Shown here in pieces: positions 4 to 4,845 of a stretch of 5,078 nucleotides of DNA. Positions within the stretch are counted from its first letter, which is position 1; every line of letters starts with the position of its first letter. The notes beneath the pieces are model-generated. The model saw only the letters and a list, made by a program, of their open reading frames with translations. It was not told where the DNA came from and did not search any database. Where the stretch lies: the NCBI GenBank assembly GCA_946886875.1, contig CAMPJN010000297.1, forward strand, positions 1 through 5,078. Reading direction: 5' to 3'. The DNA comes from an uncultured Pseudomonas sp. GTDB lineage: Bacteria; Pseudomonadota; Gammaproteobacteria; Pseudomonadales; Pseudomonadaceae. A program made the translations under genes and the position numbers.

Positions 4-38
4 TACAGGGCAGCCGGATCGTCGATGGCTGCCCTGTA
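4..38 (-). terminator. Probable intrinsic terminator after nasT (tail cut by window edge)
   Basis: A perfect 12-bp inverted repeat (positions 4-15 pair with 27-38; arms tacagggcagcc / ggctgccctgta) lies 4 nt beyond the nasT stop codon. The 11-nt loop can form a small extra stem (atc/gat). The location and GC-rich stem fit a rho-independent terminator for the nasST transcript. Only the first three bases past the stem (UUC on the minus strand) are inside the window, so the expected U-tract cannot be confirmed. It could instead be a stabilising 3' hairpin. Confidence 0.6.
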
Positions 39-42
39 GCGG

Positions 43-621
43 TTAATTACCCAACATGTCGTGCATGGCGATGATCTGTTCGGCGACCTGCACCAGTTTC
101 TGCTGACGGCTCATGGCCTGGCGGCGCATCAAGGTGTAGGCCTCCTCCTCGTTGCAGCTCTTCATCTTCATCAGCAGGCCCTTGGCCAGTTCGATTCTTT
201 TGCGCTCGGCTAGCTGGGCATCGCGGGCTTGCAGTTGGGCGCGTAACGCCTGGTCGCTCTCGAAGCGCGCCATGGCCACATCGAGGATCGGTTGCAGACG
301 CTGGGCGTGAATGCCCTCGACGATATAGGCGCTGACGCCGGATTGAATGGCCTGGCGCATCACGCCGGGGTCGTGCTCATCGGTGAACATGACGATGGGG
401 CGCGGCTGGTCGCGCGAAACCAGTACCACTTGTTCCATCACGTCGCGGCCGGGCGATTCGGTATCGATCAGAATCACATCGGGGCGTACGGCTTCGACGC
501 GTTCGGGCAGATCGATGGTCAGGCCGGATTCGTCGATCACCTCGAAACCCGCTTCGATCAGCGCGGCTTTCAGGCGGCCGACTTTTTTCGGCGTGTCGTT
601 GATTAGCAGGATACGCAGCAT
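43..621 (-). CDS. nasT: NasT: ANTAR-domain response-regulator-like transcription antiterminator of nitrate assimilation
   Basis: This is a 192-residue protein, the usual length for NasT. Residues 1 to about 120 form a receiver-like domain beginning MLRILLINDTP, with the candidate phospho-acceptor D53 in DVILIDTE and T80 in MFTDE. The acidic pair is N8-D9, and the position of the invariant receiver lysine appears to be E102 (AYIVEG), so classical phosphorylation is doubtful. Residues about 121-140 are helical and charged (a probable coiled coil). They lead into the C-terminal ANTAR domain (about 131-190: RKRIELAKGLLMKMKSCNEEEAY, then LMRRQAMSRQQKL), a three-helix RNA-binding module. In the family, NasT binds paired hexaloop hairpins in mRNA leaders and blocks termination of nitrate/nitrite reductase operons, while NasS sequesters it when nitrate and nitrite are absent. 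The ATG at 621 follows a weak AGAAGAG Shine-Dalgarno with 8 nt spacing. nasS ends 21 nt upstream, so the two are almost certainly co-transcribed. Confidence 0.93.
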   Translation of the reverse strand: MLRILLINDTPKKVGRLKAALIEAGFEVIDESGLTIDLPERVEAVRPDVILIDTESPGRDVMEQVVLVSRDQPRPIVMFTDEHDPGVMRQAIQSGVSAYIVEGIHAQRLQPILDVAMARFESDQALRAQLQARDAQLAERKRIELAKGLLMKMKSCNEEEAYTLMRRQAMSRQQKLVQVAEQIIAMHDMLGN

Positions 622-642: not shown

Positions 643-1854
643 TTATAGGCTGACAGCTGAGCTGTCGGCCAGGGCGTTGAGACTGAAACTGCGGGCATAG
701 CCGACCGGGTCGCTGCCATCCCAGACCCGACCATCGAGCAGGCAACTGCTACGCATCACCTCGGGCACGCTGATCCCCAGGGCTTCGGCCGCTTGACGGT
801 ACAGTTCCAGTTGGTGAACCTGCTGGGCGACAGCCAGATAGTCTGGGTCGTCGCGCAATAGCCCCCAGCGCCGGAATTGGGTCATGAACCACATGCCGTC
901 CGAGAGATAGGGCATATTAACCGCCCCCTCTGCATGAAAGCGTAGCGGATGCGCATCCAACCAGGCATGACCGATGCCGTCCTGGTATTGGCCGAGAAAG
1001 CGTGGCTGGATCACGTTCAACGGCGCATCGACGTACTCGCCGCCGCTTAACAGTTGTGCGGTGCTGCGCTTGTTTTCCTCGTTTTCGTCGATGAAACGGC
1101 TGGCTTCCAGGATCGCCATGATCAGCGCGCGTGCGGTATTGGGGTTCTGCTCGACAAAGGCGCGGGTGCAGCCGAGTACCTTTTCCGGGTGATCCGGCCA
1201 GATCGATTGACTGGTGGCCAGGGTGAAGCCGAGATTCTCCTCGACCGCCTGGGCGCACCAGGGTTCGCCGACACAGAAACCATCAATGCGCCGGGCCTTG
1301 AGGTGGGGCACCATCTGCGGCGGTGGAACCACCACGCTGTCGACATCATCGAGCGGGTGGATGCCTTGGCTAGCCAGCCAATAATAGAGCCACATGGCAT
1401 GGGTGCCGGTGGGGAAGGTTTGGGCGAAGGTCAGTCTTGCGCCTTTTTGGTGCGCGCGCATGTTGAGTGCATCGCTTGTGGTCACGCCGGCGAATTTCAG
1501 CCCGTGGGACAGGTTGATGCTCTGGCCGTTCTGGTTCAGTCCCATCAATATCGCCATGTCGGTGGCGGATGCACCGCCCAGGCCGAACTGCACGCCATAG
1601 ATCAGCCCGTAGAGGCTGTGGGCGGCATCCAACTCACCGCTCAGCAGCTTGTCGCGCAAGGTGGCCCAGGAAGCCTGGCGCTGCAGGTTGAGGGTCAGGC
1701 CATATTTTTCGGCGAAGCCTTGAGTGGCTGTAACAATCACGGATGCCGCGTCGGTCAGGGCCATGAACCCGATATTCAGTACCCGTTTCTCGGGGGCATC
1801 GTTGCCGGCAACCCAGGCCTGTGTATCGTTACGGCTGATAGCATGTTCACTCAT
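643..1854 (-). CDS. nasS: NasS: cytoplasmic nitrate/nitrite sensor, NrtA/CmpA-type binding-protein fold
   Basis: A 403-residue protein of the NrtA/CmpA nitrate- and bicarbonate-binding family. Recognisable blocks are the early strand VLNIGFMALTDAASV (25-39), ASWATLRDKLLSGELDAAH (61-79), TFPTGTHAMWLYYWLASQG (146-164) and GFCVGEPW (192-199). The last two are hallmark motifs of the nitrate-binding family. There is no hydrophobic signal sequence, twin-arginine motif or lipobox: the N-terminus (MSEHAISRNDTQAWVAG) is hydrophilic. This separates it from the exported transporter subunit and fits a cytoplasmic sensor. In known systems NasS binds NasT and inhibits it, and nitrate or nitrite binding releases NasT. 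The ATG at 1854 is preceded by a modest GGGA 8 nt upstream, and the VAGNDAPEK segment soon after is typical of NasS N-termini, which supports this start. It is first gene of the nasST operon, behind a sigma-54 promoter and a probable attenuator. Confidence 0.92.
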   Translation of the reverse strand: MSEHAISRNDTQAWVAGNDAPEKRVLNIGFMALTDAASVIVTATQGFAEKYGLTLNLQRQASWATLRDKLLSGELDAAHSLYGLIYGVQFGLGGASATDMAILMGLNQNGQSINLSHGLKFAGVTTSDALNMRAHQKGARLTFAQTFPTGTHAMWLYYWLASQGIHPLDDVDSVVVPPPQMVPHLKARRIDGFCVGEPWCAQAVEENLGFTLATSQSIWPDHPEKVLGCTRAFVEQNPNTARALIMAILEASRFIDENEENKRSTAQLLSGGEYVDAPLNVIQPRFLGQYQDGIGHAWLDAHPLRFHAEGAVNMPYLSDGMWFMTQFRRWGLLRDDPDYLAVAQQVHQLELYRQAAEALGISVPEVMRSSCLLDGRVWDGSDPVGYARSFSLNALADSSAVSL

Positions 1855-1876: not shown

Positions 1877-1926
1877 AAAAAGGCGCCGCACCAATGGCTG
1901 CCAGACGCAGCGATTGGGACGACACC
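1877..1926 (-). terminator. Leader terminator (attenuator) upstream of nasS
   Basis: On the minus strand a long imperfect hairpin ends directly in U5 (1881-1877), 22 nt before the nasS ATG. From the base: GGUGUCGU (1926-1919) pairs with GCGGCGCC (1889-1882) as 8 bp including 3 G-U pairs. After a C/U mismatch, CCAAU (1917-1913) pairs with AUUGG (1895-1891). After a C/C mismatch, GCUGC (1911-1907) pairs with GCAGC (1901-1897) around a 5-nt loop. That gives 18 pairs with two single mismatches, followed by UUUUUG. Its 5' base overlaps the second ANTAR-type hairpin (1933-1920), so the two cannot coexist. Pairing was done by hand and no free energy was computed. Confidence 0.7.
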
Positions 1927-1964
1927 ATTGTCAAATAAGCCAGTTCCGCCGTTGGAAATGGCTT
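1920..1964 (-). promoter_or_regulatory. Candidate ANTAR (NasT) target: two tandem hexaloop hairpins in the nasST leader
   Basis: Hairpin 1: AAGCCA (1964-1959) pairs with UGGCUU (1942-1937); after one U/C mismatch UUCC (1957-1954) pairs with GGAA (1947-1944), closing the 6-nt loop AACGGC. Hairpin 2 follows after 3 nt: UGAC (1933-1930) pairs with GUCG (1923-1920; one G-U pair), closing the 6-nt loop AAUGGU. Both loops have A at position 1 and G at position 4 and share the pattern AANGGN. The recognised ANTAR RNA motif is a pair of hairpins with hexanucleotide loops carrying A1 and G4. Hairpin 2 is short and overlaps the 5' arm of the downstream terminator, the classical arrangement for antitermination. 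Being in the leader of the operon that encodes NasT, it suggests autoregulation. Not verified with a covariance model. Confidence 0.68.
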
Positions 1965-1979
1965 TGCTGGATATGTGTT

Positions 1980-1996
1980 AGCAAGGCATATGCCAG
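1980..1996 (-). promoter_or_regulatory. Sigma-54 (RpoN) -24/-12 promoter of nasST
   Basis: The minus strand reads CTGGCATATGCCTTGCT (1996-1980). Against the RpoN consensus TGGCACG-N4-TTGCW it keeps TGGCA and TTGCT with exact spacing; only the C and G after TGGCA differ. GG (1994-1993) is the -24 element and GC (1982-1981) the -12 element. Transcription would begin near 1969, about 115 nt before the nasS ATG and just ahead of the hexaloop hairpins. RpoN control fits nitrate-assimilation genes, which are usually NtrC/RpoN-dependent. The -24 region also contains the perfect palindrome GGCATATGCC (1985-1994). No good sigma-70 alternative was found in this gap. Confidence 0.72.
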
Positions 1997-2053: not shown

Positions 2054-2084
2054 AAAAGAAAAAGCCCCGCACTGGGCGGGGCTT
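2054..2084 (-). terminator. Intrinsic terminator of acnB
   Basis: A perfect 9-bp GC-rich stem (minus strand AAGCCCCGC, 2084-2076, pairing with GCGGGGCTT, 2070-2062) with a 5-nt loop is followed by T3-C-T4 (2061-2054). It begins 33 nt after the acnB stop codon. The tail on the plus strand is much poorer in T, so it acts mainly on the minus strand. It separates acnB transcription from the sigma-54 nasST promoter just downstream. Confidence 0.9.
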
Positions 2085-2117
2085 CTCTTTATACATGCAG
2101 CGTGACGCGTTGTTTCG

Positions 2118-4727
2118 TTAGGCTTGAACGACCGGGATCTGAGCGTTCGCAGCAGCTTCACGGAACTCGGCGATCTGGTCGAAACTCAGGTAGCGGTAAA
2201 CGTCCGCTGCCATGGTGTCGATTTCCTTCGCGTAGACCATGTATTCCTCAACGGTCGGCAGGCGACCGAGGATCGAGGCAACAGCGGCCAGCTCGGCCGA
2301 AGCCAGGTAGACGTTGGCACCATCGCCCAGACGGTTGGGGAAGTTACGGGTGGAGGTCGAAACCACGGTGGAGTTTGCCTCAACGCGTGCCTGGTTACCC
2401 ATGCACAGCGAGCAGCCCGGCATTTCCATGCGCGCGCCGGCTTTGCCGTAGATGCCGTAGTAGCCTTCTTCGGTCAGCTGATGCTGGTCCATCTTGGTCG
2501 GCGGCGACAGCCACAGACGGGTCGGCAGGGTGCCTTCGACTTTTTCCAGCAGCTTACCGGCAGCGCGGAAGTGACCGATGTTGGTCATGCACGAACCGAT
2601 AAACACTTCGTCGATCTTCTCGCCCTGAACGGAGGACAGCAGACGAGCGTCGTCCGGGTCGTTCGGTGCGCAGAGGACTGGCTCGTTGATCTCGGCCAGG
2701 TCGATTTCGATGATTTCGGCGTACTCGGCGTCCTTGTCAGCTTCCATCAGCTTCGGATCGGCCAACCAGGCTTCCATCGCTTGGGCGCGACGTTCCATGG
2801 TGCGGGCATCGCCGTAGCCTTCGCTGATCATCCAGCGCAGCAGGGTGATGTTCGAACGCAGGTACTCGGCGATGGCTTTTTCCGGCAGCTTGATGGTGCA
2901 GCCAGCGGCGGAACGCTCGGCGGAGGCGTCGGACAGCTCGAAAGCCTGTTCCACGGTCAGCTCGTCCAGACCTTCGATCTCGAGGATGCGGCCGGAGAAG
3001 ATGTTCTTCTTGCCTTTCTTCTCGACGGTCAGCAGGCCTTTCTGGATGGCTACGTAAGGGATGGCATGGACCAGGTCACGCAGGGTGATGCCCGGTTGCA
3101 GTTTGCCCTTGAAGCGCACCAGTACCGACTCCGGCATGTCCAGCGGCATTACGCCGGTGGCAGCGGCGAAGGCGACCAGGCCGGAACCGGCCGGGAAGGA
3201 GATGCCGATCGGGAAGCGGGTGTGCGAATCGCCACCGGTGCCGACGGTATCCGGCAGCAGCATGCGGTTCAGCCAGCTGTGGATGATGCCATCGCCAGGA
3301 CGCAGGGACACGCCGCCACGGGTGCGGATGAAATCCGGCAGGGTGTGGTGGGTGGTGACGTCGATCGGCTTCGGATAGGCCGCGGTGTGGCAGAACGACT
3401 GCATCACCAGGTCGGCGGAGAAGCCCAGGCAAGCCAGGTCTTTCAGCTCGTCGCGGGTCATCGGGCCAGTGGTGTCCTGGGAGCCGACGGTGGTCATCTT
3501 CGGTTCGCAGTAGGTGCCAGGACGCACGCCTTTGCCTTCTGGCAGGCCGCAGGCCTTGCCGACCATCTTCTGCGCCAGGGTGAAACCCTTGGTGCTGGCA
3601 GCAGGCGGCTCAGGCAGCTTGAACAGATCGGTTGGGCCCAGGCCCAGCTCGGCACGGGCTTTCTCGGTCAAACCGCGACCGATGATCAGTGGAATACGGC
3701 CGCCGGCACGGACTTCGTCGAGCAGCACCGGGGTCTTCATTTCGAAGGTGGCCAGCACTTCTTCGGTACCGTGCTTGCAGACTTTGCCGGCATGCGGGTA
3801 CAGGTCGATCACGTCGCCCATGTTCAGCTGGGAAACGTCGAACTCGATCGGCAGAGCGCCGGCATCTTCCATGGTGTTGTAGAAGATCGGAGCGATTTTG
3901 CTGCCGAAGCAGAAGCCGCCAGCACGCTTGTTTGGCACGAACGGAATGTCGTCGCCGAAGAACCACAGCACCGAGTTGGTCGCGGATTTACGCGAGGAAC
4001 CGGTACCAACCACGTCGCCGACGTAAGCGATGGGGAAGCCTTGACCGCGCATGGTTTCGATCTGCTTCATCGGGCCGATGGCGCCTTGCTGATCAGGCAC
4101 GATGCCTTCGCGGGCCATTTTCAGCATGGCCAGTGCGTGCAACGGGATATCCGGGCGCGACCAGGCATCAGGTGCTGGGGACAGGTCGTCGGTATTGGTT
4201 TCGCCGGTGACCTTGAACACGCGCAGGCTGATCTTGTCGGCCAGGGTCGGGCGGTTCTTGAACCACTCGCCATCGGCCCAGGACTGCAGCACGCCTTTGG
4301 CGTGAACGTTGCCGTTCTTGGCTTTTTCCGCGACGTCGTGGAAGGCGTCGAACATCAGCAGGGTGTGCTTGAGTTGTTCGGCAGTCACGGCAGCCAGTTC
4401 GCTGTCGTCGAGCATTTCGACCAGGGTGGCGATGTTGTAGCCGCCCTGCATGGTGCCCAGCAGCTCAACGGCGTGCTTCTTGTCGATCAGCGGGGAGGTG
4501 GCTTCGCCTTTGGCAATGGCAGAGAGAAAACCGGCCTTGACGTAGGCGGCTTCATCGACGCCTGGCGGCACACGGTTGGTGATCAAGTCGAGCAGAAAGG
4601 CTTCTTCGCCAGTCGGCGGATTTTTCAGCAGCTCGATCAGGCCTGCGGTTTGTTCGGCGTTCAGCGGCTGGGGCACGATACCCTGAGCGGCACGCTCTGC
4701 TACATGGTTGCGATAGGCTTCAAGCAC
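2118..4727 (-). CDS. acnB: AcnB: aconitate hydratase B / 2-methylisocitrate dehydratase
   Basis: AcnB converts citrate to isocitrate via cis-aconitate in the TCA cycle and can also hydrate 2-methyl-cis-aconitate in the methylcitrate cycle. It is a cytoplasmic [4Fe-4S] enzyme. From the GTG at 4727 the product has 869 residues, the usual Pseudomonas AcnB length. The order is AcnB-type: N-terminal HEAT-like region (about 1-155), swivel domain (about 160-370, with [13 protein letters not shown] at 241-253), then the cluster-binding catalytic domains. Visible landmarks are GGDSHTR (498-504) and the three cluster-ligand cysteines C713 (FIGSCMTN), C772 and C775 ([10 protein letters not shown]). These match E. 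coli C710, C769 and C772 with a constant offset of 3. The GTG start is chosen because [16 protein letters not shown] aligns with the family's MLEAYR N-terminus and GAGGG lies 8 nt upstream. ATGs 18, 21 and 66 nt further upstream in frame would add residues absent from the family. No lesion was seen. It is monocistronic, judging by its own promoter and terminator. Confidence 0.97.
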
Positions 4728-4735
4728 AGTTATTA

Positions 4736-4740
4736 CCCTC
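4736..4740 (-). promoter_or_regulatory. Ribosome binding site that fixes the acnB GTG start
   Basis: The minus strand has GAGGG at 4740-4736, 8 nt before the GTG at 4727. The upstream in-frame ATGs at 4748 and 4745 overlap or sit next to this Shine-Dalgarno and have no equivalent of their own. The GTG is therefore preferred as the initiation codon. Confidence 0.8.
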
Positions 4741-4845
4741 ATCATTGGTCCCAAAGGGTTGTCCGGGACACGATCCAGAAACCAACAAACCAAGCGCTTC
4801 GCGACTTTATGGGTCGCTTAGCCGAGGCTTCGCTGATTTCTTCCA

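Follow-up and report, generated by a model that had tools for sequence, protein, structure and literature searches.

The locus analyzed here raises the question of whether the genes of the regulators NasS and NasT are themselves placed behind an RNA switch of the type read by NasT. In the window (the whole 5,078-nucleotide stretch of uncultured Pseudomonas sp. DNA under study), three genes follow each other on the minus strand in the order acnB (2118..4793), nasS (643..1854) and nasT (43..621). The true acnB start probably lies inside its frame, and this upstream neighbor of nasS is outside the switch, a terminator-like hairpin behind acnB (2059..2087, minus strand) separating it from the nasST leader. 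NasS, a nitrate/nitrite-binding regulator with a Pfam NMT1_2 domain (PF13379), is 87% identical to NasS of Pseudomonas sp. CC6-YY-74, while NasT combines a response-regulator-like (receiver-like) domain (PF00072) with an ANTAR RNA-binding domain (PF03861). An NMT1_2-type NasS adjoining an ANTAR-domain NasT identifies the pair as a NasS–NasT two-component regulator. Directly after nasT, a 12-bp perfect inverted repeat (window 4-38, arms 4-15 and 27-38) may end the operon.

The initial annotation had described, within 1964-1877, two hairpins with hexaloops AACGGC and AAUGGU, both with A at position 1 and G at position 4, followed by an 18-pair imperfect terminator and a U5 tract just before nasS. 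This description proved accurate to the base. On the minus strand, the first hairpin, P1 (1937..1964), is built of 6 bp, a U-C mismatch and 4 bp below the loop AACGGC at 1953-1948. The second, P2 (1921..1932), the antiterminator, reads GAC-AAUGGU-GUC. The intrinsic terminator (1877..1926) has 18 pairs (8+5+5) at 1926-1882, then U5 at 1881-1877, ending 22 nt before the nasS ATG. As also proposed earlier, its 5' arm (1926-1919) is composed of the last three bases of the P2 loop (4-6), the P2 3' arm and two further bases; therefore, P2 and the terminator are mutually exclusive. Of the features that define an ANTAR-target leader, besides binding of the ANTAR protein with read-through on induction, three are found in the window: paired hairpins, each with a stem of 3 bp or more and an A1/G4 hexaloop, P2 overlapping the 5' arm of a U-tract intrinsic terminator, and an encoded ANTAR protein, NasT. 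This definition of paired hexaloop hairpins, with A at position 1 and G at position 4, follows PMC3369931 (here and below, papers are cited from excerpts).

Upstream of P1, the sequence TGGCATATGCCTTGCT (1980..1995, minus strand) agrees with the sigma54 -24/-12 consensus (TGGC...TTGC) and its GG-N10-GC spacing, a match made at the level of sequence. With the usual promoter-to-start spacing of 12 bases, transcription of the leader is predicted to begin near 1969, five bases before P1. Of 81 loci, window included, 77 have the pattern TGGC-N7-YTGC in the 360 nt preceding nasS. A search of 1800-2200 gave no sigma70-type promoter-like site for nasS, so this gene seems dependent on read-through from this promoter. 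A promoter of the sigma54 type would probably be transcribed under nitrogen limitation, through NtrC, whose sites are upstream dyads. The best NtrC-like matches upstream of the sigma54-type promoter were no better than those in shuffled sequences, and we thus infer NtrC control from the promoter class only. In the literature, sigma54 promoters have been predicted genome-wide before the COG that includes NasT (PMC12316311, excerpt), and in P. putida KT2440, nasT rises 7.25-fold under nitrogen limitation (PMC7801951, excerpt). In the same strain, nitrogen limitation raises nasA even when rpoN is mutated (PMC7801951, excerpt). This is hard to reconcile with strict control of the regulon by sigma54, and dependence on this factor is therefore not to be presumed. 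The sampled relatives of P. putida, the species of KT2440, are without this attenuator before nasS.

The leader folds far more stably than expected by chance (z = -5.28; none of 200 shuffles equally stable). The terminated state of the 93-nt leader was computed at -43.1 kcal/mol, and the best structure with P2 forced and its loop unpaired at -32.5 kcal/mol. The two alternative states anticipated by the initial annotation are reproduced in growing transcripts, where P2 pairs with a probability of 0.70-0.97 before the terminator 3' arm is present, then of 0.04 and 0.00. P2 forming ahead of the terminator leaves a time window for a protein to trap it. P1 is paired at every transcript length (probability 1.00) and is folded in the terminated state too.

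A detector for dual hexaloops with an overlapping terminator returned the site described above as its single hit over both strands of the window. Applied to 80 related nasS upstream regions, it was positive in 33, against 1 of 800 shuffles; elsewhere in the same loci (1.05 Mb, both strands), it fired 65 times, real leaders and chance matches being unsorted. Its sensitivity is low: since it requires a 3-bp P1 beside the loop, it misses imperfect P1s, and over half of the nasS leaders of Pseudomonas escaped it; so did that of genome G006.

Conservation was followed in the best 80 of at least 585 confirmed NasS-encoding loci, all named Pseudomonas and biased to near relatives. The P2 pattern GACAANGNNGTC is present in 68 of the 80, and in 67 of these, as in the window, it overlaps a terminator, in line with the conserved overlap that had been anticipated; loop base 4 of P2 is paired within the terminator in all 68 folds (67 loci and the window). 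Two P. protegens strains (L055 and L057) are among those with the leader. The single P2 locus without a detected terminator, L059, has an insertion between the two arms of the terminator hairpin. Inspection by eye indicated leaders broken by insertions in L037 and L059.

Covariation was assessed on 57 of the 68 leaders, leaving aside eight near-copies and three leaders with a longer promoter-to-P2 distance (L019, L031 and L032). Across P1 and P2, 86.2% of cells are paired (79.9% for P1 alone), and double-sided changes affect 57 cells compared with 21.4 in shuffles, none of 500 shuffles being as high. This covariation is strong in P1, where six of the seven counted pairs changed on both sides, while P2 is invariant because the leaders were picked by its pattern. 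The lower seven pairs of the terminator are retained in 57/57 leaders, mostly through G-C/G-U or G-U/A-U exchange; covariation there is modest, with four pairs showing double changes, a number reached by 93 of 500 shuffles, and the remaining measures over the whole stem are less informative. In the P1 loop, A1 is present in 54/57 and G4 in 52/57 leaders, one or both failing in six (L003, L024, L039, L052, L064 and L067). Since both hairpins are reported as needed in work on EutV (PMC8934654, excerpt), these six count against the reading of the leader as a NasT target. The expectation of conserved hexaloops and terminator pairing held in most of the 80 loci and failed in the 12 without P2 and for these six P1 loops.

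The pattern-defined P2 is missing from L037, L051, L060, L062, L065, L071, L072, L074 and L077-L080, five of these loci forming part of a single P. putida clade. The presence and absence of this P2 require seven changes on the NasS tree, at least four forced by well supported branches, gain and loss being indistinguishable; the attenuator is thus dispensable. A loose sigma54-like site is retained in ten of the 12 loci (L080 lacks it and L071 is doubtful), and in eight of the ten, it lies closer to nasS than usual. In L051, P2 and terminator appear, by eye, to have decayed together. Visual inspection of a few relatives suggested a third A1/G4 hexaloop beyond the U tract and close to the ribosome-binding site; with stems of at least 4 bp, it was found in 5/68 leaders versus 71/1360 shuffles, which is no signal, and this candidate was rejected.

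The leader also matches a known RNA family. The Rfam narK RNA (RF03032) aligns with window 1994-1919 over the full model (1-72 of 72), through promoter, P1 and P2, with E = 4.4e-4 and 35.3 bits, a score under the curated cut-off of 43.2 for membership. Other Pseudomonas nasS leaders reach 43.2-59.7 bits (55.7 in G015, up to 59.7 in G029), and some score lower. The RF03032 consensus starts with GGCaCAgcucUUGCU, continues with a hexaloop hairpin AACGGC and then with CGACAAAGACGUCG. Its start appears to read as a -24/-12 promoter, so that about 25 bases of the model would be sigma54 promoter DNA. In its structure line, only P1 is paired, CGACAAAGACGUCG, which corresponds to P2, being left unpaired, and the model stops before the terminator. 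The sigma54-type promoter, the narK family and the wide distribution of the leader had not been mentioned in the initial annotation, and no paper on narK RNA by name was found in the literature searched.

Among the 30 narK loci listed from 15 genomes, five of which are nasS leaders, 29 have the sigma54 pattern, all 30 have P2 and 28 have an overlapping terminator. Ten proteins lying downstream of narK leaders, not necessarily encoded by the first gene, were scanned against Pfam: three are MFS transporters (presumably nasA/narK), two molybdopterin oxidoreductases, one an NMT1_2 protein, one outer-membrane-porin-like and two sensory, and one had no match. From these features and downstream genes, narK RNA in Pseudomonas is read as a leader of the NasT regulon. 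The two sensory cases are a PilJ-HAMP-PAS sensor protein (L103, 1926-3068, whose frame begins about 360 nt past the leader match) and a methyl-accepting chemotaxis protein (L108, 242-1432); judging from these leaders, NasT may also control genes of nitrate sensing or taxis. In L106 (1606-2880) and L104, loci of near relatives of the window, a narK-type leader stands before a porin-like outer membrane protein, the Pfam scan covering L106. Leaders of L096, L097, L098, L100, L101 and L102 form a sub-class with the P2 variant GACAAAGGCGCC; the Pfam scan covered three of them, with a molybdopterin oxidoreductase behind the leaders of L098 and L101 and no match for L096. In both near relatives (loci L151 and L153), a P1/P2/terminator leader resembling that of the L095 NMT1_2 gene precedes a gene that probably encodes a nitrate ABC transporter binding protein.

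Distribution was examined in an even sample of 89 genomes from the family of G006, with thresholds of E <= 1e-90 for NasS, E <= 1e-25 for NasT and E <= 0.05 for narK. NasS is encoded in 58 genomes, NasT in 59 (the same 58 and G300), and a narK match is found in 62. The narK match is present in 57/58 genomes with NasS compared with 5/31 without (Fisher p = 2e-16, a value overstated because the genomes are related), and in 57/59 with NasT compared with 5/30 without. Among 14 control genomes, none was positive at E <= 0.05 or at the curated score, and six were positive at a loose E <= 1. With strict filters, at least 36 of the 58 NasS genomes have a narK match no more than 400 nt ahead of their best NasS match; in one genus, it is found just upstream of nasS in 21/25 genomes. 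In G250, one of those 36, nasT is on the far side of the narK element. Direct reading of 29 nasS loci from this sample showed the sigma54 pattern in 27, the P2 pattern in 15 and an overlapping terminator in 14. These pattern counts are lower bounds, since the negatives include two leaders misplaced by cut flanks (L162 and L172, both with P2 and a U tract) and four with the P2 variant GACGATGGCGTC (L163, L170, L178 and L181).

With regard to the protein that reads this leader, NasT is the only ANTAR protein in 13/15 genomes, including the two nearest relatives of the window (G001 and G002). More than one NasS-like protein (two or three, about 60-74% identical to the window NasS) is present in several genomes, including G232, G284, G291 and G298, each of which also has two NasT matches. 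In P. denitrificans, it has been shown that NasT binds the nasA leader RNA and that nitrate dissociates the NasS–NasT complex (PMC3795266, excerpt). Similarly, in Pseudomonas, the nirBD leader NalA is described as driven by sigma54 and NtrC and antiterminated by NasT (PMC12830290, excerpt), RpoN, NtrC and NasT all having been implicated in its control (PMC8092218, excerpt).

Collectively, the promoter-like sequence, both hairpins, their mutual exclusion with the terminator through P2, the conservation of the leader with covariation in P1, the co-occurrence of narK with NasS and NasT and the sole ANTAR protein of near relatives support the NasT-type antitermination leader that the initial annotation had placed before nasST. 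Very probably, transcription stops ahead of nasS unless P2 is held by NasT that nitrate has released; this would establish a positive autoregulation tempered by co-made NasS; NasT binding, termination, autoregulation and the dependence on sigma54 and NtrC are the inferred parts of this mechanism. The 93-nt leader would be transcribed from the sigma54-type promoter and fold by default into the terminator ahead of nasS. Nitrate or nitrite would load NasS and free NasT, which would then bind the P1/P2 hexaloops on the nascent RNA, hold P2 and withhold the terminator 5' arm, letting RNA polymerase read through into nasS-nasT. The regulator pair would thereby raise its own level under an AND gate (low nitrogen and nitrate), and once nitrate is gone, co-made apo-NasS would turn the loop down.

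If NasT does open the nasST terminator, positive autoregulation follows. The nitrate-dependent feedback and self-reset suggested by the initial annotation were explored in a toy model with 36 parameter sets. With co-made NasS, all of it apo, the model settles in a single lower state, 1.9- to 43.7-fold below the induced one; bistability appeared in 6/36 sets, all with cooperative read-through. Self-reset through NasS is thus consistent with the model and, to be strong, would need an excess of NasS or a moderate gain. A wider proposal, that Pseudomonas narK RNA is a sigma54 promoter joined to a NasT leader which, before nasST, makes a switch that amplifies itself and may retain a memory (hysteresis), with the 93-nt product of termination, P1 intact, perhaps also serving as a threshold-sharpening NasT decoy, is regarded as doubtful. 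In itself, the nasST leader is a widespread, well conserved and fairly ordinary NasT/ANTAR attenuator.

Other readings of the same elements have to be weighed. The promoter-terminator unit might mainly produce a short stand-alone RNA which, with P1 intact and P2 buried, titrates NasT as EutX does EutV, read-through into nasST being secondary. P1 does remain folded after termination, a single hexaloop has been reported as the minimal ANTAR binding motif and EutX RNA as sequestering EutV (PMC8934654, excerpt). However, the P2-terminator overlap, retained in all but one of the P2 loci, would be superfluous in such a decoy, and nasS, with no sigma70-type site of its own in the interval searched, seems to require read-through; a predominant decoy function is therefore unlikely. 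We consider it very unlikely that the terminator is a constitutive, partial one which sets low NasST levels and is ignored by NasT, the hexaloops being relictual. The degenerate P1 loops (6/57) and the absence of the attenuator from 12/80 loci of several lineages would fit such a relic, but P1, which is no part of the terminator, covaries and mostly keeps A1 and G4, and the presence of narK-type leaders follows that of NasS and NasT through the family.

A reader other than NasT could be sought in the second ANTAR domain encoded by 2/15 genomes, and narK matches do occur in five of the 30 family genomes without a NasT match; with NasT the sole ANTAR protein in G001, G002 and 11 others, this is extremely improbable. 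The last alternative takes the hairpins as fortuitous and the terminator as the ordinary end of the acnB transcript. It is true that acnB lies upstream and that terminators are frequent between genes. However, a terminator-like hairpin (2087-2059) already follows acnB, which is found in the fetched flank of only 10/80 related nasS loci. These counts, the covariation of P1 and P2 and the detector results (33/80 versus 1/800 shuffles) contradict this explanation, the likelihood of which is close to nil.

The NasT leader thus favored shares with EutV/eut, NasR/nasF and AmiR/amiE the two A1/G4 hexaloop hairpins and the overlap of P2 with a terminator. It differs in its trans-factor, which would be NasT freed from NasS by nitrate, and in its target, which precedes the regulator pair itself. 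A precedent for a regulator behind its own ANTAR leader is amiR, located within the ami operon. NalA, before nirBD-PA1779-cobA of P. aeruginosa and P. putida, likewise combines a sigma54-type promoter with a NasT-opened terminator (PMC12830290 and PMC8092218, excerpts), a likeness drawn from its description and not its sequence; NalA controls the nitrite reductase operon, whereas the leader in the window precedes nasS and nasT. The nasTS pair of P. denitrificans resembles the nasST of the window as an NtrC-dependent, nitrate-induced regulator pair, although the excerpt of PMC5424462 describes promoter-level control with an NtrC site and mentions no attenuator.

To place the nasST leader outside Pseudomonas, 185 genomes drawn evenly from the class were used. 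Of these, 39 encode a NasT relative, and 28 of the 30 loci listed (L123-L150) were examined, taken as outside Pseudomonas because their NasT is 35-48% identical. The detector found dual hexaloops with a terminator in 17/28, always downstream of nasT, and no match upstream of nasT in flanks of up to 1.5 kb, within the low sensitivity already noted. In this modest sample, control of structural genes therefore looks older, and the leader of nasST seems to have been added within Pseudomonas.

In the literature searched, neither expression or binding data for the nasST leader nor a paper on nasST attenuation in Pseudomonas was found; prior publication is possible. If true, the mechanism adds positive autoregulation to the Pseudomonas nitrate-assimilation circuit. 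In the Rfam table, RF03032 is listed simply as 'Cis-reg, narK RNA', and reading it as a NasT leader would also supply this family with a mechanism. Finally, lineages with and without the nasST attenuator, all of which have NasT, provide natural comparisons for the purpose of this feedback.
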